Shown here in pieces: positions 4,613 through 19,492 of a DNA stretch of 42,355 bases. The notes beneath the pieces were generated by a model. The model searched no databases. It had not been told where the DNA came from and saw nothing but the letters and a program-made list of their open reading frames with translations. This DNA comes from Candidatus Zhuqueibacterota bacterium. GTDB lineage: Bacteria; Zhuqueibacterota; Zhuqueibacteria; Residuimicrobiales; Residuimicrobiaceae. Where the stretch lies: positions 1-42,355 of the forward strand of contig CAUJEL010000116.1 in the NCBI GenBank assembly GCA_963169875.1. Direction: 5' to 3'. Made by a program: the position numbers and the translations under genes. Within the stretch, counting starts at the first letter, position 1, and every line of letters starts with the position of its first letter.

Positions 4613-7600
4613 TCACTTCATCAACAACAAGCGGATGACCTGACAGGCATCCTCTGTCTTGAGCACCGCATGGTAGACGCCGCTGGGCACGGCAAGACCG
4701 GCGTCATTGCGGGCATCCCAGTACAGGGCATGATAGCCAGGCGTCATGAGGCCTTCCTGCAGCATTCTAACCCGTTGGCCTTTAACATTGTAAATACGCA
4801 CTGAGGTATTTTGCGCCGCAGGAATCTCCACCACGATCTGCGTGGCGGGATTGAACGGATTCGGATAATTCTGCCGCAGTCGCAGTGTTTTCGGCAGTTT
4901 TCCCCGCTCTTCACAAAGGCCGGTCACTGTCACCGCCACTTGCCACCGTATGAAGGTGCTATCCTCGCCATCGCTCACCCAGGCAATCACCTCGTAATCT
5001 TTTCCAGCCGGAACGGTTGGGATGAAACTCATTTCATGATCCAGCGATCTCTCGACGCCATTGACCAGCCAGCGAAAGAATAGCGAATCCCCATCCTCAT
5101 CCACAACCTCAGAGAGGCTGAAATCGAGGCTCTGATCATAGTATCCCGGGACCTGGGATTGGGGTGGATGGAACCCGAGGATTTGCGGTTGATGATTGGG
5201 TTCTTTCGCGTCGAACTGGACCAGGGCCGTATCGCTGAGCGTCACCTCCAGGCCTTTCACCAGAGCCGTGATCTTTCTCTCACCTGCAGAGGTGGCGGTC
5301 AGAGCCGCATGGATCCGGCCCGCCGCATCGGTCAGCGTGTCCGATTGAACCAGCTGTGCCTCGTTGCCCTGCACTGATAATTTCACGGTATACCCTGCGC
5401 CGCATGACAGCCCGGCGGGCGTTTTTAACGTCACCGTGATTAGCGCAGCGGTCTCGCCGTCCGCTGAAACCGGTGATGTGGCCGTCAGCGTCGAGGAATC
5501 CGGGTCCACCGCAGGGGCCGCAAAGGACCACCTCACGGGCGTCCCTTCGATTTCCTGGCCGTTCTGCACTACCGTGGCCTGGAGGATATTTTCCGGCCCC
5601 CAATAGGGGCCGGCGGTCCAGCGGACCGCAGCCACACCATCCGGACCGGTCATCACCTGGCGAATGACTTCTCCATCGAGGTGACCGTCTCCAGCCATTA
5701 CAGAAAACAAAACCGGTATGCCGTTTGCGGGCAGGTCGCTTTCATCGTAAACACTGACCGTAAAAGGCAGCGGGAATGCGGCGCCGGGGTGCATCGATTG
5801 AGCATCCCCTGAAGTTTGCTGGACTCTCAACCGGCGCATTTCACAGCGCGCCCGATAGACCTGATCTGCTCCCACTTGACGAAGGGCCAGCGTGTCGCCG
5901 CTTGAAAAGATCACACGCAGATCGCAGGTGGTCCTGTCGCCCAGACCAAAATGCAGCAAGCTGGGGCTCTGACTCATATAGCCATATTGGCTGTTGACTT
6001 CCTGATGGCCGATGATGGCGCTGTGCTCGCCATAGTGTCCCGCGCTGTAGAGGGTCACTTTGGAGCCGATGCCGCCATAGTCTCCCCGCGGTCCGATGCA
6101 CAATACTTTAAGGAAATGATTTCCGGCCTTCGAATCATTGCGCAGGAGATAATTCTGACTCTTGGCGCTGGTCAGATAGGCATCCAGATCGCCGTCATTA
6201 TCAACATCCGCAAAAGCGCCGCCGCGAAAATCAGCCGAGGCAACATCCACGCCCGATTCAGCCAATAACGCAAAGCCACCCGATCCATTGTTCAGATAAA
6301 GCTGCGGTTTTGTACCAAGCTCTTTCTCATTGTTGCGCAGCACAAACAGATCGAGATCCGCATCGTTATCGACATCGCCGCAAAAAACGGTGTAGCCGCT
6401 CACCTTGATATTAAGCGAGGAGGTACGATCCGAGAAATGCCCCGTGCCATCATTGATGAGCAAGACCAATTGCGGCAGCACATTGTTGGTCATGGCATAA
6501 TTGATGACAAAGAGATCGAGATCGCCATCATTGTCGATATCAGCAAGCGTGGCGCCGCTGGAGCGGCCGCCGATATCCGCGCCACGGTTCGCTGCATCTT
6601 CGCTGAAATGCCCGGTGCCATCGTTGATGAAAAGCCAATTAGGCGCGGCCAGAGTCGACTCCTGGCGTCGGCATACATACACATCCATATCACCGTCGTT
6701 GTCAATGTCACCGGTTGTCACACCCTGACGGCCGAAATGCGCGGTGTTTTCGACCTGGCCTTCGGCCCCGCATTGGCTCAGGGAAAAATGGCCAGCCCCA
6801 TCATTGAGATAGAGTTCATTTAAGGCGCCGACATTGGCAACGTACAGATCCAGATCACCATCCCGATCAGCATCGAACGCTGCGCTGCCATTGGTGGTAA
6901 CCGGAACATTTGAAATGCCATTGGAGGCTGTGGCGTCAACGAACAGGCCCTCACCATTGTTGAAGTACAGGGTGTTGACACCGCCGGGATCTCCGGACGC
7001 GAGCGGGACATTGGCAAAAAAGGCATCCGGAAAACCGTCTGCATTAAAATCCGCCGAAACCACTGCTTTGGTCAAACCACTGTTGCCGGTGCCGCGCAGG
7101 TCCGCTTCCTGATCAAAGGTGTTATTGCCATTGTTGATGTACAACAAATCCGGCATGGGACCATAAGTGGAACCATTGCTGACAAACAGATCGAGATACC
7201 CGTCTGCATCCACATCCGAAAAAGAGAGCCCCTGGCCATACCCGGACGCCGAAAAGCCACCGGCACCCGCAGATGTGGTGATGTCCGTAAAAAGATTCTT
7301 GCTGACAGGCGGAGGAGGTGGTGGCGGAGGCGGCGGTGGCGGCGGCACACTGCCATCCGGTCCATAGATGGTCAGGTTTGAATAACAAGGACCGACCATG
7401 CAGACGTAACCGTAAATCAAATTATCTTTACCGAGAAAGATGTAGCGGAATGGTTCGATTTGTCCTGAGAAGGGGAAGGTTGCGCGGTGCACGCCATCGA
7501 CATAGATATAGGCATTGGTTGTGGTCCAGATGATGCGGAACGTATAGGTCTCTAATGGATCCCAATCCATATCGCGCATAAGGTAATTCTCATGACGCGA

Positions 7601-8074
7601 ATCAATCCCGCACGGCTGGGTGAGAAGCTTGAACCCAATCAGTCCCTCTCCCGCTGAATACCTGGTATGCCGCTGGGTTCGCACATTGATCCAGGATGCG
7701 GTAGTTTCATAGACGCTTTTATCCGCCTCGGGACGCGACCACAAGTTGATGCAGTGCTGCTTGTCAGAATCCACTGCATCATTCTGAAACCACGGATCAA
7801 AATTGGTGACATCCACCTCCAGGGAACCCTCCAGCGGCAGATTGGCCGGCAGGGTGATGAACAACTGATTGTTCTTGGCGATGGTCTGCCAGCCCTTACC
7901 GGCCACAAAGACACCTCCGGTATTCTTCATGCTGCCCAGGGCGGTCGAGTTGGGATTATCGAGGAAATCATGATAAAGAACCTGGGTATGCCAGGGTTGA
8001 GCATGGAGGCTGGCGAATATCGTCAAGAACAATGCAACTATATAAAAAACGCGGCGGATGTAGTTCATCTGCAT
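4613..8074 (-). CDS. Secreted VCBS/FG-GAP repeat protein with ASPIC-UnbV, Ig-like domains and T9SS tail
   Basis: I start at the ATG at 8074 (MQMNYIRR), behind GGGAGA; the frame extends to a TTG at 8149 but the signal peptide fits the later start. Of 1153 residues, 1-25 are a signal peptide and about 30-245 look like a concanavalin-like sandwich. A run of 13 prolines follows near 250. Seven VCBS/FG-GAP blades with calcium-binding D.D.DG..D patterns (such as DIDNDGDLDLF) come next, then an ASPIC/UnbV-like segment (GSKVTLY ... LHFGLGD), two Big-1-like Ig domains, a further Ig-like domain, and a T9SS tail with YPNPFN near residue 1070. The propeller is probably an extracellular, calcium-stabilised binding module. 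Function is unknown; adhesion or polymer binding is the likely reading. The proline run should stall ribosomes without EF-P, which is encoded at 38292-38855. Confidence 0.88.
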   Translation of the reverse strand: MQMNYIRRVFYIVALFLTIFASLHAQPWHTQVLYHDFLDNPNSTALGSMKNTGGVFVAGKGWQTIAKNNQLFITLPANLPLEGSLEVDVTNFDPWFQNDAVDSDKQHCINLWSRPEADKSVYETTASWINVRTQRHTRYSAGEGLIGFKLLTQPCGIDSRHENYLMRDMDWDPLETYTFRIIWTTTNAYIYVDGVHRATFPFSGQIEPFRYIFLGKDNLIYGYVCMVGPCYSNLTIYGPDGSVPPPPPPPPPPPPPVSKNLFTDITTSAGAGGFSASGYGQGLSFSDVDADGYLDLFVSNGSTYGPMPDLLYINNGNNTFDQEADLRGTGNSGLTKAVVSADFNADGFPDAFFANVPLASGDPGGVNTLYFNNGEGLFVDATASNGISNVPVTTNGSAAFDADRDGDLDLYVANVGALNELYLNDGAGHFSLSQCGAEGQVENTAHFGRQGVTTGDIDNDGDMDVYVCRRQESTLAAPNWLFINDGTGHFSEDAANRGADIGGRSSGATLADIDNDGDLDLFVINYAMTNNVLPQLVLLINDGTGHFSDRTSSLNIKVSGYTVFCGDVDNDADLDLFVLRNNEKELGTKPQLYLNNGSGGFALLAESGVDVASADFRGGAFADVDNDGDLDAYLTSAKSQNYLLRNDSKAGNHFLKVLCIGPRGDYGGIGSKVTLYSAGHYGEHSAIIGHQEVNSQYGYMSQSPSLLHFGLGDRTTCDLRVIFSSGDTLALRQVGADQVYRARCEMRRLRVQQTSGDAQSMHPGAAFPLPFTVSVYDESDLPANGIPVLFSVMAGDGHLDGEVIRQVMTGPDGVAAVRWTAGPYWGPENILQATVVQNGQEIEGTPVRWSFAAPAVDPDSSTLTATSPVSADGETAALITVTLKTPAGLSCGAGYTVKLSVQGNEAQLVQSDTLTDAAGRIHAALTATSAGERKITALVKGLEVTLSDTALVQFDAKEPNHQPQILGFHPPQSQVPGYYDQSLDFSLSEVVDEDGDSLFFRWLVNGVERSLDHEMSFIPTVPAGKDYEVIAWVSDGEDSTFIRWQVAVTVTGLCEERGKLPKTLRLRQNYPNPFNPATQIVVEIPAAQNTSVRIYNVKGQRVRMLQEGLMTPGYHALYWDARNDAGLAVPSGVYHAVLKTEDACQVIRLLLMK

Positions 8075-8417
8075 GAGTCTGGATCTCCCTGTCTGTGATC
8101 GGATGAGAATAAAGCCTGCGCTCTGGCTGTCGTACACGCAGCACAGCAAAACATTTCATATAGCTAACAATACGCATAAAATCAGAGATTGCGTAAAACG
8201 ATGAAATATAGCTTCTGCGGCAGCCGTATAAAAAAGGGACAAGCCGGCACAAGGCTTGTCCCATTGATGAACGCTGACCTGATACGTTCGATGAATGCGA
8301 GATATGCACCACGCCGCATACTCACTGGCCCAGCAAGACAGTTGCGCGACGCGGCGAATCGCGCAAGTCTGAACCACCCCGTGAGGGGCTGAAGTTCAGC
8401 GCCGCTATTACAAATGC
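8075..8417. other. Non-coding stretch with terminator and a hairpin series
   Basis: This stretch separates the start of the VCBS gene from the end of the DUF4097 gene, both leftward. It holds a strong terminator (8230-8262). Between that and the DUF4097 stop are two more hairpins: TTGCGCGA/TCGCGCAA at 8342-8366, and CTGAAC/GTTCAG at 8369-8399 with an inner CCCC/GGGG pair. The promoter of the VCBS gene must lie between about 8080 and 8228. No gene is visible. Confidence 0.5.
8230..8262 (-). terminator. Intrinsic terminator after the envelope-stress-like operon
   Basis: Read leftwards, a perfect 10-base-pair stem, GGGACAAGCC/GGCTTGTCCC, with a seven-base loop is followed directly by six T (8235-8230). 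This is a textbook Rho-independent terminator for the operon ending with the DUF4097 gene. Confidence 0.88.
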
Positions 8418-9209
8418 CTATTCACCTCTCAGCTCAATATTCCCGTTCACGGTGCCCAGGTTGATCACACCTTGGCCCTCGCCGAGGACCCCATCAAGCG
8501 TGGTCATTGTGCGCGCGATGGCAGTGAATGTGAGATTATTTACCGAGATAGCGCCAACTGTTAAGGTGGCCGTCACAGTTGCCGACGTGGAAGGCGGAAT
8601 GGACAACAGGATTTTTCCATTCACAGCGCGGATATCGCAGCGGTCGTCCGGTTGCAGCACCATCTGAACATCGACATTGCCATTGGTGATGCCTGTGTTG
8701 ACCGAACCGCGGACATTCCGGAGCACGATATTGCCGTTGACCATCTCCAGATGGAGGCTTTTACCGAGATTATCCAGGTAAGCCTCGCCATTGACCATGG
8801 TGATCGTGACCGGATAGTTCTCCGGAATACGCACCTTGTAATCGATCCGATATTGGCGGCCGCGGGTATTTTCAGGTTGCTGGGTGCGGACTCTGATGCA
8901 GCCGCCATCCTGGTTTATGCTCACCTTAAGTTCCTGCATGTACTCGTCGGCATCCTCATAACTCTCGGACGAGACGCTTTTTTCACCCCAGATACGCACC
9001 GTTTTGGCACCGGGTATGCCGATCACTTCCACGGGGCCGTTGATGGCGTTGAGCTCGAGAGATATATATTCAGTGGCGGGAAATTCCCGGGAAAAATCGT
9101 CTGTGACGGTAAACCGCGTATTGTCGACATTTTCATAAGGATCTTCAATGCAACAGGCGCTGAAAAGCATCACGCCTGAGAGCAAAAGTACTGCAATGAG
9201 TGGTTTCAT
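8418..9209 (-). CDS. DUF4097-type putative lipoprotein
   Basis: A 263-residue protein with a signal sequence ending in LFSACC, a lipobox-like site. The rest is beta-strand rich with repeated short units (EMVNGNIVLRNVRGSV, TGITNGNVDV, RAVNGKILLSI, GTVNGNIELRG), typical of the DUF4097 beta-helix fold. Family members are often linked to anti-sigma or envelope-stress genes; their molecular role is not settled. Start: ATG at 9209 behind AAGGA. It is the last gene of a leftward operon, 13 bases after the FecR-domain gene and ahead of a strong terminator. It probably sits in the periplasm or on the outer membrane, anchored by lipid. Confidence 0.82.
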   Translation of the reverse strand: MKPLIAVLLLSGVMLFSACCIEDPYENVDNTRFTVTDDFSREFPATEYISLELNAINGPVEVIGIPGAKTVRIWGEKSVSSESYEDADEYMQELKVSINQDGGCIRVRTQQPENTRGRQYRIDYKVRIPENYPVTITMVNGEAYLDNLGKSLHLEMVNGNIVLRNVRGSVNTGITNGNVDVQMVLQPDDRCDIRAVNGKILLSIPPSTSATVTATLTVGAISVNNLTFTAIARTMTTLDGVLGEGQGVINLGTVNGNIELRGE

Positions 9210-9222
9210 ATCTTTATCCTTT

Positions 9223-9954
9223 TCATTGGATCATCCTGGATTGTTTGAGCCGCGCCACAGCGGTCTCAATCTCCTGCCGCCGTCCGGAGTGCGTTTGCGC
9301 ACCACAACCCTGTACTTCAAGTCGCTGCAGCGCCTGCTGGTAAGCTGCCAGCGCCTGACCGGTGTGATGGATGGCCTCAAAAGCACGGCCGAGATAAAAG
9401 TGTATCTCCCCGCAATCGTTCTGTTCCGGGTAATGGCGCAGGATCTTGTGACATTTGACGATGGTGTTGGTGTTAAAGGCATTCTCCAACAGTGTCGCGG
9501 CCCCATTGACTTCGGCACGCCAGCGGCGCGGGCGTTCTGCAGCGAGTGCAGTTTGAGCGGTTTTTTCTTCTCCGTGCACCGAGGTGATCTGGCCGAATCG
9601 TAACGGGGTTTTATCCTGCCGTTTTGGCAACTGTTCGATTTTTTGACTCACCAGCCACAAAAACATTTCCCGTTCGCTGAGGCGTTTGATATCGGATATA
9701 TCGAGAATAATATTGGCGCCGATGCGCAAGCGGCCGCCATCCTGCGTTTGAATGAGCACTTCACTATCTTCTGTGGTCAGAATGGTATCGAATGATTCCA
9801 GCGCCATGCCAACCTTCGCCTCCTGCCATGACTCGGACAGCCCAGGCCGCACCAGTACACAACCATGCTGCGACAAAATCCGGGCCGCAGGCTGCGCGAC
9901 AAGCTGTATGGCGAATACAAACAGAAGTAAAAAAACAACTCGCAGAATTTTCAT
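9223..9954 (-). CDS. FecR-domain periplasmic protein with helical C-terminus
   Basis: The start is the ATG at 9954 (MKILRVVF) behind GGAG; nine extra upstream codons to 9981 are unlikely. Of 243 residues, 1-20 form a signal peptide (AIQLVAQ). About 25-110 matches the FecR fold: a G..V.R......W..A..G..L...D.I.T...S...I...DG..L.IG..........I pattern. The C-terminal half (about 130-240) is helical and TPR-like (LGRAFEAIHHTGQALAAYQQAL). FecR domains outside iron signalling are common in envelope proteins encoded near CHASE2-domain sensors, as here. It may be a periplasmic binding partner for the CHASE2 protein or the two barrel proteins. The gene lies 33 bases after the transglutaminase-like gene, in the same operon. 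Confidence 0.82.
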   Translation of the reverse strand: MKILRVVFLLLFVFAIQLVAQPAARILSQHGCVLVRPGLSESWQEAKVGMALESFDTILTTEDSEVLIQTQDGGRLRIGANIILDISDIKRLSEREMFLWLVSQKIEQLPKRQDKTPLRFGQITSVHGEEKTAQTALAAERPRRWRAEVNGAATLLENAFNTNTIVKCHKILRHYPEQNDCGEIHFYLGRAFEAIHHTGQALAAYQQALQRLEVQGCGAQTHSGRRQEIETAVARLKQSRMIQ

Positions 9955-9987
9955 AAAAACACTCCGGGTTTCAGTCTGCAAAGACTG

Positions 9988-11571
9988 TTATTCGACATCG
10001 TGGATGGTCACCCATCCGTCGGCCAGTCCATTTCGCACAACCGCCTCGTTCAGGTACTGTGTGGCGCCCGACAACCAGGCATTTTCAAAACCGGTCTGCA
10101 GCAGCGTACATTCCAAAGGGATCCACAGCAACGACTCTCCGCGCTGATTTTCACGGATGACATAGCGCTTTTCGTTGGAGCTGATGGTCTCCGCCTGTTC
10201 CGGCGTCAGACCGGTCGAAAACAACAGGTAGAGATGCGCGGTGGATTTATCGGGATCCTTGACCTCGACGAACGCCGTGTGAATGCCGGCGCTCTCCAGG
10301 AAAGAAGCACACAACACCGTCAGATCGTCACAATCACCACCGCCGGATTGAAGTGTCTCCACGGGAGAGAGCACCCGCTCATCCTGATAGAAGGGGATAT
10401 TCGGATCATGGCGATAGCGCAACCCGTGCGCAGAGAGCTGATCAAAAAACGTCCTGGCAACATCCAGGGCATTGGTGCCAATGGAATCGTGGGATATCCA
10501 TGCCTGCATCTGCTGCATGATTTGCGCATCATCAGGAGTGACAAAGTACTTGAGCTTTTGCATATCGCCATCCCAGGCATTGCGATGATGGATGACCAGT
10601 TCAGCGCTCAGGGTCTTGCGCAGAGTATTGCCGGCGCGGCCTTCGACCATCAAGTCCAGTACAGCCGGTGCCCGGCCAGCGACCTTGAGCAGCTGCGGGC
10701 CAAAGATAACCGTGACCGGGATATCCCTGGTCTCATGGCGCTCGAGACGGATAAAACCGCTGTCCTTGTCCCTTGCCGTATATCCGTCGATGTGGCTGCG
10801 CACATTGACTTCGATGGGATAACCGGCGAGATTGCGGATGGTGACCAGAGCCAGGGGATAGGTATTATAGAATTGATAATAAGCCGGATAAAGATTCTCC
10901 ACAATAAGCCTGGTGCCCATGATCTGGTACATCTCCCGGCTTTTACCCCACATCACGGTCAAGCCGAGTCCGAATTCCGGGCCGCTATAGGCGCCTTTGC
11001 TTCGCCACTCCACAAAGTGATATTTGCCGTCGAACGTCAAAGCCAGCCAACTGGTGAAAAGAAGGTGTGAACCGGCGCAGACATAACCGCCATAGTTAAC
11101 CTGACTCGTTCCAGTCACCGTGACGTTGCCAGTTCGCTCCCGTTCCTGGACATCAAAATGACTCACCCAATAGGGTCCTGCACCGGCGCCGAGATAGGGT
11201 TGCAGGGAACCTCGAAGCCTGTCCGCGAAAGGATAGTGGCGTACGCCGAGGAGAATCGGCACCACCGCGGATACATCCGCATCACCTTCGTTTTCGGTCA
11301 AGAACTCGCTGTGGATGGTCGCCACCGAAGCGAGATCGAACTGCATGAACCAGTTGCGCTGAATGCGCGAATGATAGCTGAGCCAGAAACCGACGCCCGC
11401 CAGATCCACACTGCCGCCTGCGGGGGCTGTATCCAGATTGAAACGAAATGTCTGATCCGCCATGTTCCAGAAACTGAGCCGGAATCCGAGACCGTGGCTG
11501 CGGGAGATTCCCTGCGCATGCACATGCGTAGCCAAACCGGCGAGACAGATCAACAGTATAAATCGTTTCAT
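9988..11571 (-). CDS. Outer-membrane beta-barrel protein with transglutaminase-like domain
   Basis: Start at the ATG at 11571 (MKRFILL), behind AAGG with seven-base spacing; the in-frame extension to 11616 is a poor N-terminus. Of 527 residues, 1-19 are a signal peptide. About 25-210 is a small beta-barrel domain (LGFRLSFWN, LTFDGKYHFVEW, GLGLTVMWG) resembling the next protein upstream. About 215-330 is a beta-rich domain and about 340-500 a transglutaminase-like fold. C414 in GGGDCDDLTVLCASF and H446 in TAHLYLLF fit the Cys-His part of the triad; WIPLE marks the usual final strand. The Cys is in place, so it may be a protease or acyltransferase acting in the periplasm. A barrel fused to this domain is unusual. 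It is the second gene of the operon controlled from 12306-12321. Confidence 0.85.
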   Translation of the reverse strand: MKRFILLICLAGLATHVHAQGISRSHGLGFRLSFWNMADQTFRFNLDTAPAGGSVDLAGVGFWLSYHSRIQRNWFMQFDLASVATIHSEFLTENEGDADVSAVVPILLGVRHYPFADRLRGSLQPYLGAGAGPYWVSHFDVQERERTGNVTVTGTSQVNYGGYVCAGSHLLFTSWLALTFDGKYHFVEWRSKGAYSGPEFGLGLTVMWGKSREMYQIMGTRLIVENLYPAYYQFYNTYPLALVTIRNLAGYPIEVNVRSHIDGYTARDKDSGFIRLERHETRDIPVTVIFGPQLLKVAGRAPAVLDLMVEGRAGNTLRKTLSAELVIHHRNAWDGDMQKLKYFVTPDDAQIMQQMQAWISHDSIGTNALDVARTFFDQLSAHGLRYRHDPNIPFYQDERVLSPVETLQSGGGDCDDLTVLCASFLESAGIHTAFVEVKDPDKSTAHLYLLFSTGLTPEQAETISSNEKRYVIRENQRGESLLWIPLECTLLQTGFENAWLSGATQYLNEAVVRNGLADGWVTIHDVE

Positions 11572-11594
11572 AATCAGACCTTTGCAGTAAAACA

Positions 11595-12248
11595 TTACCG
11601 TTTGAAACGGCCCCACATGAATTGCAGGCCGATGCCGTATTCAAAATTGCTATAGTCATCATCCACATCAAAGCGCACAAAATGGTGCCGCGCATCGAAA
11701 TTGAGTGCCAGCCAGCTGGCCAGCTGATAATCCAACCCCGCCCCCAGGTACGCGCCCGGGTGTCCATCCCATTCGGTGGTCACTTTACTCTCGCCCCACG
11801 ATTCGTGGACAGAGGCCCTGGCGATGATATAGGGTCCGGTTCCGGCCGCGAGATAAGGGCGCGCCACACTGGCGCTGGCAAGCGGCAGCAGAACAAAACG
11901 AATGCCGATCGTCATGGGAATGATGGCACTGAAATCAAAATCGTCATCGTTGTACCAGCGGTTGACGCCGCGCACGGATCCGACGCTGCCAAAATTCAAC
12001 TCGAGAATCAGCCGCTCGGATGCGCGCGAGAGCAGATAGAGATGGCCGCCAGCGCCGCCGATGTCCACCCAGTCTTCTCCGTGGCATGAATGCGCCACGA
12101 CCCGGTTCTGCACCCCGGGCATCGCCCAATAGCTGCTGCGCAGGCCGATGCCCGCCGAGCGGATGAGCTCAGAGGCCCTGATCGTTGGTGCGGCTGAAAA
12201 CAGCCAGATGCTGAATATGGCTACGCACCATTTACCGCCTTGTTTCAT
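11595..12248 (-). CDS. Outer-membrane beta-barrel protein, first gene of putative sigma-54 operon
   Basis: A 217-residue protein with a signal peptide (about 1-26, ending RASE) and alternating strands that close on LQFMWG, a typical barrel end. It shares patterns with the barrel part of the next protein (IGLRSSYWAMPG versus LGFRLSFWNMAD; LNFDARHHFV versus LTFDGKYHFV), so the two probably arose by duplication. Two ATG codons are adjacent; the second (12248) has the better seven-base spacing to GGAGG. The gene is the first after a sigma-54-like promoter and ends 23 bases before the barrel-transglutaminase gene. Function unknown: a pore, or a structural envelope protein sensed or replaced under stress. 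Confidence 0.82.
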   Translation of the reverse strand: MKQGGKWCVAIFSIWLFSAAPTIRASELIRSAGIGLRSSYWAMPGVQNRVVAHSCHGEDWVDIGGAGGHLYLLSRASERLILELNFGSVGSVRGVNRWYNDDDFDFSAIIPMTIGIRFVLLPLASASVARPYLAAGTGPYIIARASVHESWGESKVTTEWDGHPGAYLGAGLDYQLASWLALNFDARHHFVRFDVDDDYSNFEYGIGLQFMWGRFKR

Positions 12249-12305
12249 CATATATCCTCCATGTTAGAATTCAGCGTGACGCAATGCCACGCTGCTGGAG
12301 GATAG

Positions 12306-12321
12306 ACAATAAACATGCCAA
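12306..12321 (-). promoter_or_regulatory. Putative sigma-54 promoter of the barrel/transglutaminase/FecR/DUF4097 operon
   Basis: Read leftwards the sequence is TTGGCATGTTTATTGT. The sigma-54 consensus is TTGGCACG-N4-TTGC: the -24 GG is present, spacing is exact, and the -12 element has GT instead of GC. The site lies about 60 bases before the start of the first barrel gene. The gene just upstream encodes a sigma-54 activator, which supports the call. Confidence 0.6.
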
Positions 12322-12414
12322 TCTTGCCGCATCAATTTTAATATTGTTTTTATTATTTTTATCTCAATAACCGCCACCTGTCTCAAGTGCCTTGAAGCGC
12401 GGAAAAATCGTAAT

Positions 12415-12431
12415 TGCGGAAATATTCCGCA
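12415..12431. promoter_or_regulatory. Perfect palindrome, candidate enhancer for the sigma-54 activator
   Basis: TGCGGAA-ATA-TTCCGCA is a perfect 7-3-7 inverted repeat about 100 bases upstream of the putative sigma-54 promoter, the usual place for an activator dimer site. A further half-site, GCGGAA, lies at 12399-12404. It falls between the activator gene and its presumed target operon. Binding by the adjacent activator is inferred. Confidence 0.5.
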
Positions 12432-12454: not shown

Positions 12455-15043
12455 TCAGCGAATTTCATCGAGATGCTGTATCACCAGCTGCAAAGCAGCA
12501 TGATACTTCCGGGGCAAGCCCTTGCAGGGGAGCGATACGGAGGCCATGGTGTGCGTCTTTAAATTATCGACATAAGCCTGGAGTTTTTTGCGAACGCGCA
12601 TGACGGTTTCACTTTTTCCGGTACCAGCCAGGGCGCGGGCCGCGTCCTGAACAGAATATTTCTCAGCAACGAGGTATTCAAAGCATAGTCCGCGAAAATA
12701 TTCGGTGACAGTGCCGCGATCGCGTCCCCCCAGAGCCAGAGCGGTTTGGGCGATGGCCGTATGAGAAAATTCCAGGGTGCGCAATGAATGCAGTATCTGC
12801 TCTTCCAGGGAGAGGTAAACAGATGAATCCCTCTTTATTGCGAGCAGATTCCCGGGCAGATCCTCTTTTTCGATGAGGTCGCGGTTGCGGCCGCGTGCCA
12901 TCAATACCGCCCTGCGCAGGACATTATCCAGTTCACGGATATTACCAGGCCATGAATAATCCATAAGAATGATCAGCGCCTCTTCAGACAGGTTCATCGG
13001 CCGTTCTGAGTCAAGTTGAGTGAGAAAATGGCGGGCCAAAACCGTAATATCCATGGAGCGCTCGCGCAACGCGGGCAACGCGATGGTCATGCCGTTGAGG
13101 CGATAAAACAGATCCATGCGGAATTTTTCCTCCTCCACAAGCTGCTTCAAGTCGCGGTTGCTGGCGGCGATGATACGGACATCCACAGAAAAGGGCGTCT
13201 CGCCGCCCAATCGCTGAACCACCTTGTCCTGCAGGACCCGCAGCAGTTTGGCCTGAAATGCGGGCGACGTTTCGCTGATTTCATCCAGGAACAGCGTTCC
13301 GGTGTCAGCCAGTTCGAACAGGCCACGCCGCCGGGCGATCGCCCCGGTAAAGCTCCCCTTCTCATGGCCAAACAGCTCACTCTCCAGCAAGGTTTCCGCA
13401 AGCGCACCGCAGTTGACGGCCAGAAAGGGCGCTGCACTGCGCTTCCCGGCGCGATGAATGGCGCGCGCAACCATCTCCTTGCCAGTGCCGGTCTCTCCCT
13501 CAATGATCACGGAAATGTCCGATGGAGAGAGCAATTCAATGGTGTGCAGGACATCCGCCATGGGACTGTTGCTGCTGTAGACGATATCGTATTTTGATTC
13601 TTGCCGTTGCGAACCGGGCTGAAGTGCCGCCTGCAAATCTTCCAGACGGTTTTTCATCTCGGCAACAGCCCGCTCTTTTTCCAGCAAACGCTGTAGCGCC
13701 GGATCATCCGCAGACGCCGTATCGTCAAGCAGCCGGGATTGCAAGCTGTCGAGTTGACGTTGTGCTTCCTGCAAAGCTGCCGCTTTCACGCGGATTTCTT
13801 CCTGAAGGCATGCGTGTAATTCTTCCGTCCTGGCGCGCTGCAGCCCGGTCTTGTGGATGAGCAAAACAGAGCCTGACAGCACCATGGCGGCAAGCGGCGA
13901 AAAGAGCGGCCATATCCAGTGCCATTGGAACAGCACCTGCCCCAGCAGGACGGAGAGCAGAAGCGCGGCGATGAAGATCACTGCGCCGTGAAATGCAGAA
14001 AAACGCTGAAGGCAGAAAACCAAAGACAGGCAGAATAACACCAGGAGCAGCACCTGCAGCCACCGGGGCAATGGAACAAGTTCGCTGCCCTGCAACAGAT
14101 TGTCGACCGCGGTTAATTGCAGCAGTGCGGCCGGGAGCACAGGATTCAAGGCGGTGGTTTTGCTGACGGCAACGCCTGGCGCGGTGACGCCCACGAAGAC
14201 GATGCGGTTTTTGAGATCCAGGTTTTCGGGATGTTCGCGCAGTTGTTGCAGGGCCGCGACGAACCCCAGCCGTTGCAGGCGGCGGCCGCCAAAGTGGTTG
14301 AGTCGAAGCTGTCCCTTGGCATCGAGTGCGATGGCATGGCGGTTTCCATCGTCATCCTCGAAAACAAGCAGGCCGGGCTGAAGAAGGAAAGGATGGCCTC
14401 CCCAGTACTGCCGTGCAACTTCCGCGGCTAAAGACAATCGCATGGAATCCAGATCCATCGCCACCAGTGGCAGCCGCGACAGGGCGCTGCTGGCCGGCAC
14501 ATTGCTGAATCCGCAACCGCTCACTCTTTCGAGCAAGGCCGGGTGAGGCCATCCAGGGTCATCACCGGTAAAATAACCATTCGGATGCGAAGGCGGCGTG
14601 AATCGCGCAAAGGCCATGGGTAACATAACCGGTGTGCTGGTTTCGAGGTATTCGGCAAAGAGCCGGTCATATTCAGGATAATCGGGGCGTGGCTGTTCCA
14701 TGAGGATATCAAAGACCACGAGACGCGGCTGGTGACTGGAAAGGGCGTAAAGAAAATAGCCATAGTAATCGCGCGTGATCGGCCATCCACCCAGATCGCG
14801 GATATCCTCAGCGGAGATGTCGACAAACAAAAGGCGATCATCCAGCGTCCTTTCCCCGCGCACGCGCGCATAAAGTGCGGCACTCGCGTCCTCGGAAGCC
14901 GATTGCCAGGTATCCGGCCCGTATAGCGAGAGTGCGAAAACCAGGGTGATGAGTGCTGCGAGTTGCGGACCTGCTTTCATGCGTAGCGTCGGGCGCAGCT
15001 GGCCAACAGCCCAAGAAGTAACAGAGAGCAAACAGGACTGCAT
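12455..15043 (-). CDS. CHASE2-domain sensor fused to sigma-54 activator (AAA+)
   Basis: Of 862 residues, a first membrane segment (about 27-42) leads into an extracytoplasmic CHASE2 domain (about 45-320: LLFVDISAEDIRDLGGWPITR, VVFDILMEQPRPD, NRIVFVGVTAPG). Three membrane helices follow (about 327-346, 352-371, 378-397), then a coiled coil (400-478). The AAA+ domain covers about 485-715: Walker A GETGTGKE 516-523, the sigma-54 loop GSFTGA 563-568 (GAFTGA in most), Walker B LFLDE 584-588, and WPGNIREL near 708. The C-terminus (about 758-835) has helices that could be a helix-turn-helix. It should hydrolyse ATP to open sigma-54 promoters in response to an envelope signal. Most such activators are soluble; a membrane CHASE2 sensor fused directly to one is less usual. 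The start at 15043 has GAGGA before it. Confidence 0.9.
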   Translation of the reverse strand: MQSCLLSVTSWAVGQLRPTLRMKAGPQLAALITLVFALSLYGPDTWQSASEDASAALYARVRGERTLDDRLLFVDISAEDIRDLGGWPITRDYYGYFLYALSSHQPRLVVFDILMEQPRPDYPEYDRLFAEYLETSTPVMLPMAFARFTPPSHPNGYFTGDDPGWPHPALLERVSGCGFSNVPASSALSRLPLVAMDLDSMRLSLAAEVARQYWGGHPFLLQPGLLVFEDDDGNRHAIALDAKGQLRLNHFGGRRLQRLGFVAALQQLREHPENLDLKNRIVFVGVTAPGVAVSKTTALNPVLPAALLQLTAVDNLLQGSELVPLPRWLQVLLLVLFCLSLVFCLQRFSAFHGAVIFIAALLLSVLLGQVLFQWHWIWPLFSPLAAMVLSGSVLLIHKTGLQRARTEELHACLQEEIRVKAAALQEAQRQLDSLQSRLLDDTASADDPALQRLLEKERAVAEMKNRLEDLQAALQPGSQRQESKYDIVYSSNSPMADVLHTIELLSPSDISVIIEGETGTGKEMVARAIHRAGKRSAAPFLAVNCGALAETLLESELFGHEKGSFTGAIARRRGLFELADTGTLFLDEISETSPAFQAKLLRVLQDKVVQRLGGETPFSVDVRIIAASNRDLKQLVEEEKFRMDLFYRLNGMTIALPALRERSMDITVLARHFLTQLDSERPMNLSEEALIILMDYSWPGNIRELDNVLRRAVLMARGRNRDLIEKEDLPGNLLAIKRDSSVYLSLEEQILHSLRTLEFSHTAIAQTALALGGRDRGTVTEYFRGLCFEYLVAEKYSVQDAARALAGTGKSETVMRVRKKLQAYVDNLKTHTMASVSLPCKGLPRKYHAALQLVIQHLDEIR

Positions 15044-15468
15044 TGGGGTCCTCGGTCAATAAAATAACTGCTTATTTTAAAGATAGCCAATTAATACATA
15101 AAAGCAAGACTTTTCAGAGTCCTGGTGGATATGCCGGGTTAAATCATAGTGGCTAACCTGTCATGGGATGCCATCGATCGAGCGACTCTCCTGTGGAACG
15201 GCTCCGGCGAGTTGACACAAAATGATTACATAGGGTAATATAATTATGACATTTTTTTTCATATAGAAATTAGCAAGCTTCATTACGCTATATCAATATT
15301 TTTTAAAATTGTTAATTATGAAGTTATGAACAAGAATAATGTCGCAAAAGGATCAGGACGGTACAAAAATTGCAGAATGACTAAAGGTGCTCGATTCCAA
15401 TAAAATCACCGGAAGACTTGTTATCTAATGTGTGCAGTAGTTATTGAACTCTAACAAAGGAGCTAATG
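15044..15468. other. AT-rich divergent intergenic region
   Basis: This region separates the leftward CHASE2 gene from the rightward S74 gene and must hold both promoters. It is clearly more AT-rich than its surroundings from about 15205. A candidate rightward promoter is listed separately at 15212-15241. A weak leftward candidate is TTGCTT with TATCTT and a 16-base spacer close to the CHASE2 start. No gene is visible. Confidence 0.5.
15212..15241 (+). promoter_or_regulatory. Candidate promoter for the S74-domain gene
   Basis: A perfect TTGACA (15212-15217) and TAATAT (15236-15241) are 18 bases apart. The site lies about 225 bases before the S74 gene, so a long leader would follow. The match is to the general sigma-70 consensus; the preferences of this lineage are unknown. 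Confidence 0.35.
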
Positions 15469-17085
15469 ATGGATCGAATTTACAGCAGACTTCTTTCCGG
15501 CTCAAGCAAAATGTTCGCTCTCTGTTTCCTATTTGTTGCCGTGACCGCTTCTTTTGCCCAGATGCAGGTCAAGAATTCTCCGGGCACAGAAGTGTTCATG
15601 CAGGTGAGTCCGAATGGAAATGTCGGCGTCGGTACCACACTGACACCCAACAAGACCAATATTGCGGGCAATCTGGCCATCGGTGCCACTTTTTCAGCTT
15701 TGGCAGCACCCGCCAATGGCTTGACCGTCCAGGGAAACGTCGGCGTTGGCTTGACAGCGCCGGATGCCAAGGTGCGCATTGAAGGGACGTCTCTGGCAGC
15801 CTTGCCCATGCGCAGCTACATTTCTCATGCTGCTTTGGTTGCGAGCGATCAGGACATGCCGCAGAATACCGATGACAAGAGCAACATCATCTTCAGCGCC
15901 AATCTAATAAAGACCACTGCGCGAACCGTTGACGGCAACGCTCATCGCATCGCAATCCAGGGTGCCCTGACCCTGACACCTGGCCATGATGCACTTCAAG
16001 TCAGCGGGGGCTCCCTGGGCTATCAATCCGATTATCTGGGACTCATCGCCGGCACTGTCGGCAGCATTCAAGACGACGCAGCCGGGCAATTTCCGGCGGG
16101 TTATATCAGAACAGCAGGACTTTTCAGCAGTGCGCAAATTTCCGATGACGACTATGCCCTGAGAGTCACCGGTGGCGCGAAAAGCTATTTCAGCCATGCC
16201 ATTGGTATTGGAACCACCTATCCCACCGCCAATCTCACAGTTGTGGGCCATGCCGGGGTTTTTGATTTTCCGGATGGCGGTTGGTACGGAGGCAGCTTGC
16301 GCAATCGAGCTGGTATCCGTGTCGATATAATGGATGCAACCAATGACAGGGGGGTAATGGGCGTTTCAGCGGCTGTCATCCCGCCAGGAGATGCAAGCGC
16401 GACTTCGATTCACATAGGTACGCAGGGGCGTTTGCTCAATGGTTCCGGAACAGCGACCCTGGCGAGTGGAGATTTGGGCGCTGGGGCGGTCCATAACGAT
16501 CATATGGATGTATGGGGTGTATCTGGAAGAATTGATGCCAAAGGTATTATGGATCTCTACCCGTCAACGCTGGGATATATAGCGTCAAGCTATGGCCTGG
16601 TCGACAGAAATGGGGTCAGTGACGGCGGCCCATATCCAAAAGCATTCGCGGGCTTTTTCGATGGCGCAAAAAGCTATTTTGGCGGCTCTGTCGGCATAGG
16701 CGCCACAAATCCGGGCGCATATATGTTATTTGTGCAGGGTGATGGCTATGCCAGCGGCCAGTTCATCAGCGGATCTGATGAACGCTTCAAAAAAGACATC
16801 AAACCACTGGATAATGTTCTGGAGCGTATCGACCGCCTCCAGGGGGTCTCTTTCAATTGGCGGCAGGAGGCATTCTCCGAGCGGAATTTTAACGGCCGCA
16901 CTCAGATCGGTGTGATTGCACAGCAGTTGGAAAAAGAATTCCCGGAACTGGTAACCACCGATCAGGCGGGCTACAAGGGCGTGGCCTATGATAGAATTGG
17001 TGTCATTCTTCTTGAAGCGGTCAAAGAACTGCGCAAGGAAAATCAGGAAATGCAAAAAAAGATGCGGGCTGCTGGCATTGAGTGA
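15469..17085 (+). CDS. Secreted protein with C-terminal S74 intramolecular chaperone (self-cleaving)
   Basis: I prefer the second of two adjacent ATGs (15469), six bases after AAGGAG; 538 residues. A signal peptide ends near residue 31 (VTASFAQ). The middle is glycine-rich with recurring GNVGVGTTLTP, GVGLTAPDAKV, GIGTTYPTANL and GIGATNPGAYM units, each a beta-structured fibre-like motif. From about 435 to the end is a peptidase S74 domain: SDERFKKDI ... GVIAQQLEKEFPELV ... GVAYDRIGVILLEAVKEL, ending in a coiled coil. S436 and K441 match the Ser-Lys pair used for autocleavage, so the last 100 or so residues should be cut off after trimer folding. S74 domains are best known from phage tail fibres; here there are no phage genes and there is a signal peptide, so a bacterial surface fibre is likely. 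Confidence 0.88.
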   Translation: MDRIYSRLLSGSSKMFALCFLFVAVTASFAQMQVKNSPGTEVFMQVSPNGNVGVGTTLTPNKTNIAGNLAIGATFSALAAPANGLTVQGNVGVGLTAPDAKVRIEGTSLAALPMRSYISHAALVASDQDMPQNTDDKSNIIFSANLIKTTARTVDGNAHRIAIQGALTLTPGHDALQVSGGSLGYQSDYLGLIAGTVGSIQDDAAGQFPAGYIRTAGLFSSAQISDDDYALRVTGGAKSYFSHAIGIGTTYPTANLTVVGHAGVFDFPDGGWYGGSLRNRAGIRVDIMDATNDRGVMGVSAAVIPPGDASATSIHIGTQGRLLNGSGTATLASGDLGAGAVHNDHMDVWGVSGRIDAKGIMDLYPSTLGYIASSYGLVDRNGVSDGGPYPKAFAGFFDGAKSYFGGSVGIGATNPGAYMLFVQGDGYASGQFISGSDERFKKDIKPLDNVLERIDRLQGVSFNWRQEAFSERNFNGRTQIGVIAQQLEKEFPELVTTDQAGYKGVAYDRIGVILLEAVKELRKENQEMQKKMRAAGIE

Positions 17086-17185: not shown

Positions 17186-17207
17186 AGGGTGCGCTGAGGC
17201 GCACCCT
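17186..17207 (-). terminator. Terminator at the end of the two-component operon
   Basis: A perfect 9-base-pair stem, AGGGTGCGC/GCGCACCCT, with loop TGAG overlaps the response-regulator stop codon. Leftwards it is followed by GATTTTAA. It also lies downstream of the convergent S74 gene and could stop transcripts from both sides. Confidence 0.65.
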
Positions 17208-17889
17208 AGATCACATATTTATAGCCGATCCCGTGTACGGTTAATATATGACGCGGATGATCCGGATCGGTTTCGATCTTTTTGCGCAATTTGAGGATAT
17301 GATTGTCAATGGTGCGGCTGGTGGGCGCCGCATCATATCCCCAGACATCCTCCAGCAGCTGGTCGCGGCTGATGGTCTGACCGGCGTGCTCGTACAGATA
17401 CTTCACAATTTCAAATTCTTTGTGCGTCATCTCCACTTCGCCTTGCTGATCCCGCGCCGTGTAGTGGGCAAAATTGATTTCCAGACAGCCTATGTGCACG
17501 CTTTCCGCCGCGGAGGCGGCGCCGGCCGGCGAACGGCGCAGCACCGCCTTGACCCGCGCCAGCAATTCCCGCACGCTGAAGGGCTTGGTGATATAATCAT
17601 CCGCGCCCAGCTCCAGGCCGAGCACCTTGTCGATCTCCTGCCCGCGCGCTGTCAACATGATAATCGGCGTTTTAACGCCCCTGGCGCGAAGGTCGCGGCA
17701 AATGTCCAACCCCGATTTTTTCGGCAACATGACATCGAGCAGGATCAGCTGAAATTCCGGCGACAGGGCCATCTCCATGCCGGATTCGCCGTCAGCAGCC
17801 AACACCACTTCATGACCGTCAAACTCGAAATTATCTTTCAAGCCTTCGGCCATGTCGCGTTCATCTTCGACAATCAATATTTTTGCCAT
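17206..17889 (-). CDS. OmpR/PhoB-family response regulator
   Basis: The start is the ATG at 17889 (MAKILIVEDE) behind GAGGA; 227 residues. The receiver domain (1-120) has the acidic pair E8-D9, phosphoacceptor D52 in LLDVMLP, the switch Thr in MLTARG and the Lys in TKPFSV. The winged-helix DNA-binding domain (about 130-227) has MTHKEFEIVKYL and RTIDNHILKLRKKIE. It should be phosphorylated by the kinase encoded 13 bases upstream and then bind promoter DNA. Targets are unknown; the co-transcribed amidohydrolase is one candidate. Confidence 0.93.
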   Translation of the reverse strand: MAKILIVEDERDMAEGLKDNFEFDGHEVVLAADGESGMEMALSPEFQLILLDVMLPKKSGLDICRDLRARGVKTPIIMLTARGQEIDKVLGLELGADDYITKPFSVRELLARVKAVLRRSPAGAASAAESVHIGCLEINFAHYTARDQQGEVEMTHKEFEIVKYLYEHAGQTISRDQLLEDVWGYDAAPTSRTIDNHILKLRKKIETDPDHPRHILTVHGIGYKYVI

Positions 17890-17902
17890 ATCATCCTCAG
17901 AT

Positions 17903-19492
17903 TCACTCAGAGTTGTGTACGCTGACCACTGGAAGTACCAGTGAAAAAGTGCTGCCTTTGCCGACGAGGCTCTGCACCTCGACGCGTCCGCCATGGGCCG
18001 CCATGATATGCGCCACGAGCGCCAGCCCGATGCCGCTGCCCTTGGTGTTATGAACCAGGCTGCTCTCGACGCGATAAAATTTTTCGAATATCCTCTTCAG
18101 TTCTTTCTCCGGAATGCCGATTCCGAAATCCTCCACCTCGATGCGCACGGTATTTGCTTTTGTTAACACGCGCACGCTGATCTTTTTCTCCTCCCCGCTG
18201 AATTTCATGGCATTGTCCAGCAGGTTGATGAGCGCGCGCATCATGGCTTGACGGTCCATGAGAATGGCCGGAATTTCCGGTTCCACGCCGGATTGTACGG
18301 CAAAGCCCTTCTGCTCAAGATGAGAACGGTACATCTCCAGGGTCTCTTCCACCATCCGGCTCACATCTTCAGGGACCAGGTGAAAGGATATCTTGCCGGA
18401 CTCGATCCTGGAAAAATCCAGAATATTGTTGATCAATTGGGTGAGGCGGTTGCTCTCGTTCATGATGATGCGATAATATCGCTGCCTCTTGTCAGCCGTG
18501 CGCACGCGGCCCATCTCCAGGGTCTCCGCATACATGCGTATCAGCGCCAGCGGTGTGCGCAGCTCATGGGAGACATTGGCGACAAAATCGGTTTTTATGC
18601 GCGACAGCGCATACTCGCGTACCAGGGTGCGCGCCAGGAAAAAGAGCGTCACCAGGATCAGGGCATTGACCAGGCCGAGAAAGAGCAGGTTGCGGGCGGT
18701 TTGCCGATCTGCCATCGCCGCCAGCGTCATACCCTGCATTTTAATCGACACGCTGACTTGCGGCAAAATCCACAACGTCGCCTCTTTCTCATAGCCAGCG
18801 CTGGAGTCCGCTGCCGTGCGATAAAGAATGCGCCCGGTGTCCGTGTCCCGAATCAGAAATGAAAAGCGCGATGATTCGGCTTGCAGCAGTTTGTACGTCA
18901 CCATCTGTTGCACGAAGGCATCCAGATCCAGCCACAAGGATAGCGTCGCCAAGGAATTATTTTTGACATTTGCGCTCTGACTCTGCGGCAACATAAAAAA
19001 AATGCCGCCCGCTTCATCCGTCCGGTCCGAGCGTACGCGCACCGGGTAGAGCAATCCCTGTTGTGCGCGCCGTGCCAGGCGCAGCAGTTGGCTGGCCGAA
19101 TCGCGTTCGGTGTTTTCAATCAGTTCTTTTATCGACGAGATGCGCGAGGCAGGGATCTCAGGGTCGCTCACCCTGAATTTCCAGGAATCGTCCACTGCAT
19201 GAAAAAAGACGCCCTTGAGCACCGGATATTTTTGCAGCATGGCGGCCGCAGCGCGATCGAGAGAGGGGGATTGCAGGGCGCCGGGCAATTCCGTCGACCA
19301 GCCCGTGAACTGATCCCAGGCGTACTGGTTGACCGAAAAAAGGATGCCGTCCAGTTGCTGACCGTAAATGGACGCGATCATCTCCTTGTGGCTATTTCGC
19401 TGCATGATCTGGACTATCGTATAGGTCGCCAGCGGCAGGATCAGCAACAGGGCCAGCCAGATCATCCATCGATGCAGAGTGGATTCCCGCAT
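17903..19492 (-). CDS. Membrane sensor histidine kinase
   Basis: Start at the ATG at 19492, two bases after the stop of the amidohydrolase gene, so translation is probably coupled; 529 residues. A first membrane helix spans about 10-30. A long periplasmic domain (31-265) contains no familiar sensor motif. The second helix is about 268-290. The kinase core has H309 in NVSHELRTPLALI, an N box (LINLLDNAMKFSG), G1 (VEDFGIGIP), F (FEKFYRVES) and G2 (GSGIGLAL). It should autophosphorylate at H309 and pass the phosphate to the regulator encoded next. The ligand is unknown; a product or substrate of the upstream secreted amidohydrolase is an attractive guess. Confidence 0.92.
   Translation of the reverse strand: MRESTLHRWMIWLALLLILPLATYTIVQIMQRNSHKEMIASIYGQQLDGILFSVNQYAWDQFTGWSTELPGALQSPSLDRAAAAMLQKYPVLKGVFFHAVDDSWKFRVSDPEIPASRISSIKELIENTERDSASQLLRLARRAQQGLLYPVRVRSDRTDEAGGIFFMLPQSQSANVKNNSLATLSLWLDLDAFVQQMVTYKLLQAESSRFSFLIRDTDTGRILYRTAADSSAGYEKEATLWILPQVSVSIKMQGMTLAAMADRQTARNLLFLGLVNALILVTLFFLARTLVREYALSRIKTDFVANVSHELRTPLALIRMYAETLEMGRVRTADKRQRYYRIIMNESNRLTQLINNILDFSRIESGKISFHLVPEDVSRMVEETLEMYRSHLEQKGFAVQSGVEPEIPAILMDRQAMMRALINLLDNAMKFSGEEKKISVRVLTKANTVRIEVEDFGIGIPEKELKRIFEKFYRVESSLVHNTKGSGIGLALVAHIMAAHGGRVEVQSLVGKGSTFSLVLPVVSVHNSE

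Follow-up and report, generated by a model that had tools for sequence, protein, structure and literature searches.

The window, by which we mean the whole 42,355-nucleotide stretch of DNA that was analyzed, carries a gene for a sigma-54 activator and, beyond a short gap on the same strand, four tightly packed genes (11595-12251, 9988-11616, 9223-9981, and 8418-9209) that we refer to as the target operon. The features of this locus are as follows.

8418 to 9209, minus strand: operon gene 4, a DUF4097 lipoprotein (Pfam DUF4097, 6e-9), with a site of its own where it is located elsewhere
9223 to 9981, minus strand: exported protein with FecR/retention-module-like and TPR parts; likely start, ATG at 9954
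9988 to 11616, minus strand: protein with beta-barrel and transglutaminase-like parts; likely start, ATG at 11571
11595 to 12251, minus strand: operon gene 1, an outer-membrane beta-barrel protein (Pfam OMP_b-brl, subthreshold), also the first gene in relatives
12255 to 12260, minus strand: ribosome-binding site GGAGGA, read directly, preceding the ATG at 12251/12248
12304 to 12321, minus strand: sigma-54 promoter, -24/-12, TTGGCATG TTTA TTGTCT, read directly; TGGCA-N6-TTGC is kept in relatives
12398 to 12404, minus strand: third half-site TTCCGCG, at a distance of 17 bp from the dyad's right half (17 to 19 bp in most relatives), from the site alignment
12415 to 12431, no strand assigned: enhancer dyad TGCGGAA-ATA-TTCCGCA, the sole perfect copy in the genome, kept in ~35 distinct loci
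12455 to 15043, minus strand: sigma-54 activator gene, 862 amino acids
12458 to 12811, minus strand: C-terminal domain of the activator (residues ~745 to 862), presumed to bind DNA and not of the Fis type
12827 to 13573, minus strand: AAA+ sigma-54-interaction domain and lid of the activator (residues 491 to 739; Pfam PF00158, PF25601)
14027 to 14944, minus strand: CHASE2 domain of the activator (residues 34 to 339; Pfam PF05226), expected to be a periplasmic sensor

The preliminary description had placed a -24/-12 element on the minus strand, a perfect dyad about 100 bp upstream of it, and a sigma-54 activator gene just behind, and each of these was found: the promoter at 12321-12304, the dyad at 12415-12431 (its start 110 bp upstream of the promoter start), and the activator gene, with its CHASE2 and AAA+ domains, on the minus strand at 12455-15043. 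The TTCCGCG half-site at 12404-12398 had been overlooked. The activator is composed of CHASE2, transmembrane segments, a coiled coil, an AAA+ domain with a GSFTGA loop, and an unusual C-terminal domain; the transmembrane and coiled-coil segments were assigned by eye from the sequence. Pfam matched CHASE2 (5.9e-31; 108 bits for PF05226 against a cut-off of 26.3), Sigma54_activat (PF00158, 1.1e-66), and the AAA lid. Nineteen orthologues could be aligned over the full length, and their loops read GAFTGA or GSFTGA; many genomes in the class encode such full-length orthologues (31 to 46% identity). One orthologue, in Candidatus Chrysopegis kryptomonas (L087:4362-6998), is seemingly broken into several reading frames. 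The genome also has a complete rpoN gene, encoding a 470-amino-acid protein with all three Sigma54 domains (AID, CBD, and DBD). Upstream of the activator gene itself, no dyad or strong sigma-54 site that would point to autoregulation was seen in 12 loci.

Read on the minus strand, 12321-12304 is TTGGCATGTTTATTGTCT, with GG-N10-GT where the consensus has GG-N10-GC, and it is thus one base off the -24/-12 pattern (GG-N10-GC, with TGGCA and TTGC boxes). Transcription is predicted to start near 12294. Judged from a single genome, the case is weak, because sigma-54-like matches occur at chance frequency and dyads of this size are common. At two or fewer mismatches, the window held 23 matches to the -24/-12 pattern compared to 31.6 expected. 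The exact palindrome TGCGGAA-ATA-TTCCGCA was found once in the 5.0-Mb genome, and simple arithmetic gives ~300 expected occurrences for 7-bp dyads of whatever sequence around a 3-bp spacer. The -24/-12 element alone and the dyad alone, both at chance level, were therefore rejected as evidence. When we looked for a wider regulon in the same genome, a loose pattern matched in five places, and the dyad was present only at this locus. Elsewhere in that genome (L173:1500-1610), a good sigma-54 promoter (TGGCATTGCTTTTGCA) without a dyad stands before a small exported-protein open reading frame.

The dyad and the promoter are significant because they are conserved in relatives. The same genes lie downstream of the activator in most relatives, and most of the first-examined gaps between activator and operon contain the dyad, a third TTCCGCA half-site, and a TGGCA-N6-TTGC promoter. 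In all, the palindrome, the third half-site, and a sigma-54 promoter precede the same outer-membrane genes, with the palindrome phased to the promoter, at ~35 distinct loci of KSB1/Calditrichota relatives. The site alignment gave a promoter consensus of TGGCAT-N5-TTGC and showed that GCGG and CCGC are almost invariant in the dyad; the two halves covary in L045, L046, and L048, where GGGA is paired with TCCC. The third half-site lies 17 to 19 bp further on in relatives and 29 bp further on in L051. In matches to the same sequences at zero to three mismatches, the real dyad was found 12 to 38 times, a reversed dyad 0 to 1 times, and a half-swapped dyad 0 to 7 times. What had been described as a palindromic enhancer is a conserved dyad, and the enhancer is more precisely the dyad plus the third half-site. 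Of the outcomes that would have contradicted the preliminary reading, the two that were checked, a genome lacking rpoN and a palindrome not conserved in relatives, were not observed, and the reading is supported.

A strict composite pattern yielded 24 matches in 20 of 63 genomes, and the reversed control yielded none. Across the phylum, the strict pattern was found in 22 of 82 genomes, all 22 of which have the activator, and in 0 of 49 activator-less genomes (Fisher, 3.8e-12); the transglutaminase operon and the activator co-occurred in a 26/0/2/35 distribution (p, 1e-15), and both tests treat as independent genomes that are in fact related. The strict pattern was not matched in 11 activator genomes, and relaxed sites were present in most of those examined (e.g., L003, L047, L050, L058, and L069). 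One further genome, G079, was examined after the motif and pattern had been fixed. It has three dispersed sites, one each before a TonB receptor gene, the operon encoding the barrel-transglutaminase and FecR proteins, and the DUF4097 gene.

The dyad of the window starts ~23 bp past the stop codon of the activator gene, and in several relatives the distance is within ~25 bp. This arrangement would also be expected if the dyad were a short terminator hairpin of the activator gene whose likeness to an enhancer is incidental. However, the dyad lacks a T-run, its base sequence is conserved beyond mere pairing, and it is accompanied by a third direct half-site and by helical phasing (see below). Moreover, in L035, L047, L049, L056, L063, and L134 the operon is unlinked from the activator, and the site still precedes the operon. 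A TonB-dependent receptor heads the operon in L052, L057, L060, and L072, and the site there precedes the receptor; in G004, the relocated DUF4097 gene carries its own site. Since the dyad is equally conserved at unlinked operons, we rejected the terminator reading, which we regard as extremely improbable. The view of a complete local circuit also needs refinement. The activator, enhancer, promoter, and four-gene operon are all at this locus, as had been claimed, but the regulon to which they belong is held together by sequence, and relocation of its operons leaves that link intact. Comparison across relatives shows that, as sequence elements, the activator gene, the dyad with its third half-site, and the -24/-12 promoter make up a single conserved module marking a recurrent set of outer-membrane genes: those for the beta-barrel protein, the barrel-transglutaminase protein, the FecR/TPR protein, the DUF4097 lipoprotein, and, in some species, a TonB-dependent receptor. 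Dyad sites upstream of a target promoter, as for an enhancer-binding protein, are likewise apparent from this comparison.

The distance between palindrome and promoter takes discrete values. Measured start to start, it is 91, 101 to 104, 110 to 115, or 123 to 124 bp, and no values lie between. The periodicity of these spacings peaks near 11 bp, and 20,000 uniform draws yielded no equally periodic set, although related loci are not independent in this comparison. This quantized spacing matches the DNA helical repeat. In L051, the third half-site is likewise shifted, by 11 bp. The spacing of 110 bp in the window is the worst phased. Shared ancestry offers another explanation of the ladder, namely, that many species inherited a few ancestral spacings and the helix face was not under selection. 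Related loci do often share the 101- to 104-bp spacing, and the spacing classes cluster on the gene tree more than in shuffles. Nonetheless, the tree of the transglutaminase protein requires at least eight rung changes, each ending on another rung. When only one value was taken per inferred shift (from a list of shifts drawn up by hand from the tree), the spacings still fitted whole turns counted from 102 bp (p, ~3e-4), and all three of the new sites in G079 fall on a rung. We therefore consider inheritance of a few spacings an unlikely source of the ladder and favor a helix-face requirement. IHF-like sites were found in the loop at only 5 of 35 loci and so are no general part of it. A short, stiff loop is thus the simplest reason for the phasing, as such a loop without an added bending protein would demand strict helical phase.

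The C-terminal domain of the activator is the presumed reader of these sites. The Fis-type helix-turn-helix (PF02954), which is usual but not obligatory in enhancer-binding proteins, was absent among the families listed for 19 of these C-terminal domains, and no Pfam or NCBIfam family scored above its cut-off. AlphaFold predicted the 118 C-terminal residues with high confidence (pLDDT, 93.5) as six helices, which in the model may form two helix-turn-helix-like pairs. A fold search of the domain gave no PDB match at an E value of ≤0.001 and nothing meaningful; because the search method handles helical bundles poorly, the lack of a match does not prove that the fold is new. The domain occurs once per activator genome and otherwise only in paralogues of a few genomes (L177:5853-8642, L178:2961-5771, L188:1490-4339, and L189:7538-10027), which are followed by sigma-54 promoters with other palindromes. 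Two of these paralogues carry a Cache-like sensor instead of CHASE2. The palindrome beside the paralogue is TCCCACGAATTCGTGGGA in L177, TTCCCAC-N6-GTGGGAA in L188, and GCTGTGGAA-N4-TTCCACAGC in L189, each with a sigma-54 promoter, and several of the promoters associated with paralogues stand before TonB-receptor genes. The paralogues and their own palindromes probably represent a wider family of similar circuits. That paralogues with related domains adjoin different dyads is consistent with DNA recognition by the C-terminal domain. These distinct palindromes, together with the location of the domain and its helical fold, lead us to infer that the domain binds the dyad; the inference does not draw on homology to a known domain, and the domain may represent an undescribed DNA-binding family.

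Formally, a different regulator, either an activator or a repressor, could occupy the dyad while the CHASE2 activator acts from solution or through other sites. In favor of such a regulator, the C-terminal domain belongs to no annotated DNA-binding family. Yet the sites are confined to genomes that bear the activator, where the activator domain is found just once apart from the few paralogues, and paralogues with related C-terminal domains adjoin different palindromes upstream of sigma-54 promoters. Phasing to the promoter, furthermore, is a requirement of an enhancer-binding protein. We judge it quite improbable that another regulator occupies the dyad.

The products of the target operon point to the cell surface. 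Transglut_core was matched in 12 of 12 relatives of the 9988-11616 protein and OMP_b-brl in 8; the Cys of GDCDD and the His of AHLY are invariant, and the named close relatives are KSB1/Calditrichaeota metagenome-assembled genomes. Against the LapG model, the transglutaminase-like protein scored 15.6 bits compared to a cut-off of 320, and 4u65, listed as a putative cystine protease, was a further weak match. Among members of the FecR/TPR-like family, TPR_2 was matched in 12 of 26 and FecR (PF04773) in 3 of 26 at an E value of ≤0.1 (best, 0.05; subthreshold), and retention_LapA matched weakly in 17 of 26 (14.8 bits against a cut-off of 50). The AlphaFold model of this protein (pLDDT, 91.6) gave its best fold match (E, 1.3e-3) with 5ix9, a domain for anchoring at the cell surface. 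These weak matches, below every cut-off, suggest that the transglutaminase-like and FecR/TPR-like proteins (9223-11616) are a Lap-like surface proteolysis pair. Like the LapG protease and the LapA retention module of the Lap system for adhesin release, the pair combines, in conserved association, a transglutaminase-like cysteine protease with a retention-module-like beta-domain, the likeness resting on weak NCBIfam and fold matches. Unlike in that system, no profile match exceeds its curated cut-off and the protease is fused to a beta-barrel; a giant adhesin or LapD-type protein was not identified for the present system.

Loci of Ignavibacteria, Bacteroidota, and Chlorobi hold more distant orthologues of the activator, which keep its domain order and lie near transglutaminase and FecR-like genes. 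In Bacteroidota and Chlorobi (L081:6867-7010 and L083:6810-6960), TTCCCGCA half-sites in tandem stand directly after the orthologous activator and ahead of a sigma-54 promoter, and the next genes there encode lipoproteins, not barrels. The most widely persisting core consists of the activator, the transglutaminase-like protein, and the FecR/TPR protein.

We conclude that the locus very probably belongs to a sigma-54 regulon for exterior components of the cell, controlled by a membrane-spanning enhancer-binding protein. On the comparative evidence, the circuit is real; direct binding by the C-terminal domain, the signal, the loop geometry, and the function of the targets in the envelope we infer. 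In the proposed mechanism, CHASE2 would sense the periplasmic state of the surface system, probably via its FecR-like partner. The activator would oligomerize through its AAA+ domain, with the C-terminal domain gripping the dyad and the third half-site, and the short intervening DNA (~75 to 110 bp) would loop. The AAA+ ring, held on a set helix face, could then remodel the sigma-54 closed complex so that transcription proceeds from near 12294, and the AAA+ part would thereby activate synthesis of the surface system through sigma-54. We advance more tentatively the possibility that the locus combines a new DNA-binding family, replacing Fis in a membrane-spanning enhancer-binding protein, with a helically quantized regulon and Lap-like surface proteolysis under a CHASE2-FecR pair.

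Several known systems resemble parts of this circuit. NtrC/NifA-type circuits share the AAA+ activator, the upstream dyad, the -24/-12 promoter, and an activator gene adjoining its target; they differ in that here the sensor is a CHASE2 membrane domain, the C-terminal domain is not Fis, and the site is TGCGGAA-N3-TTCCGCA with a third half-site and a phased ladder. A reconstruction of sigma-54 regulons in Clostridiales found upstream activator sites mostly 100 to 250 bp upstream (PMC6615313); the phylum and targets of the present regulon are outside the coverage of that survey. CHASE2 has been described in a histidine kinase with a LysM-FecR protein (PMC5192318) and in an adenylate cyclase with a FecR-domain outer-membrane protein and a TPR protein (PMC9239204). 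As in those loci, the CHASE2 sensor gene adjoins a gene for a FecR-like and TPR exported protein; in contrast, the polypeptide that carries the sensor here has a sigma-54 AAA+ activator as its output part instead of a kinase or a cyclase, and the FecR-like and TPR parts are fused in one protein. Francke et al. 2011 (PMC3162934) proposed that sigma-54 controls the exterior of bacteria, and the outer-membrane and surface proteins targeted here agree with that proposal; their survey mentions neither CHASE nor transglutaminase. In the literature searched, which covers only a minority of subscription journals, no enhancer-binding protein with a CHASE2 domain was described. The present regulon defines, for an uncultured phylum, an envelope regulon that can be read from sequence alone and ties the CHASE2-FecR sensor pair to a sigma-54 output. 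In addition, the natural spacing series of 91, 102, 113, and 124 bp makes the helix-face dependence of enhancer action directly testable.

Other genes flank the locus. Divergent from the activator, 15466-17085 encodes a product whose C-terminal domain is an endosialidase chaperone (Peptidase_S74), followed at 17206-17994 by an OmpR-family response regulator whose longest open reading frame extends the N terminus by ~35 residues. On the other side, the FG-GAP/UnbV protein (4613-8149) and the amidohydrolase (2418-4424) both have terminal type IX secretion sorting tails (Por_Secre_tail).
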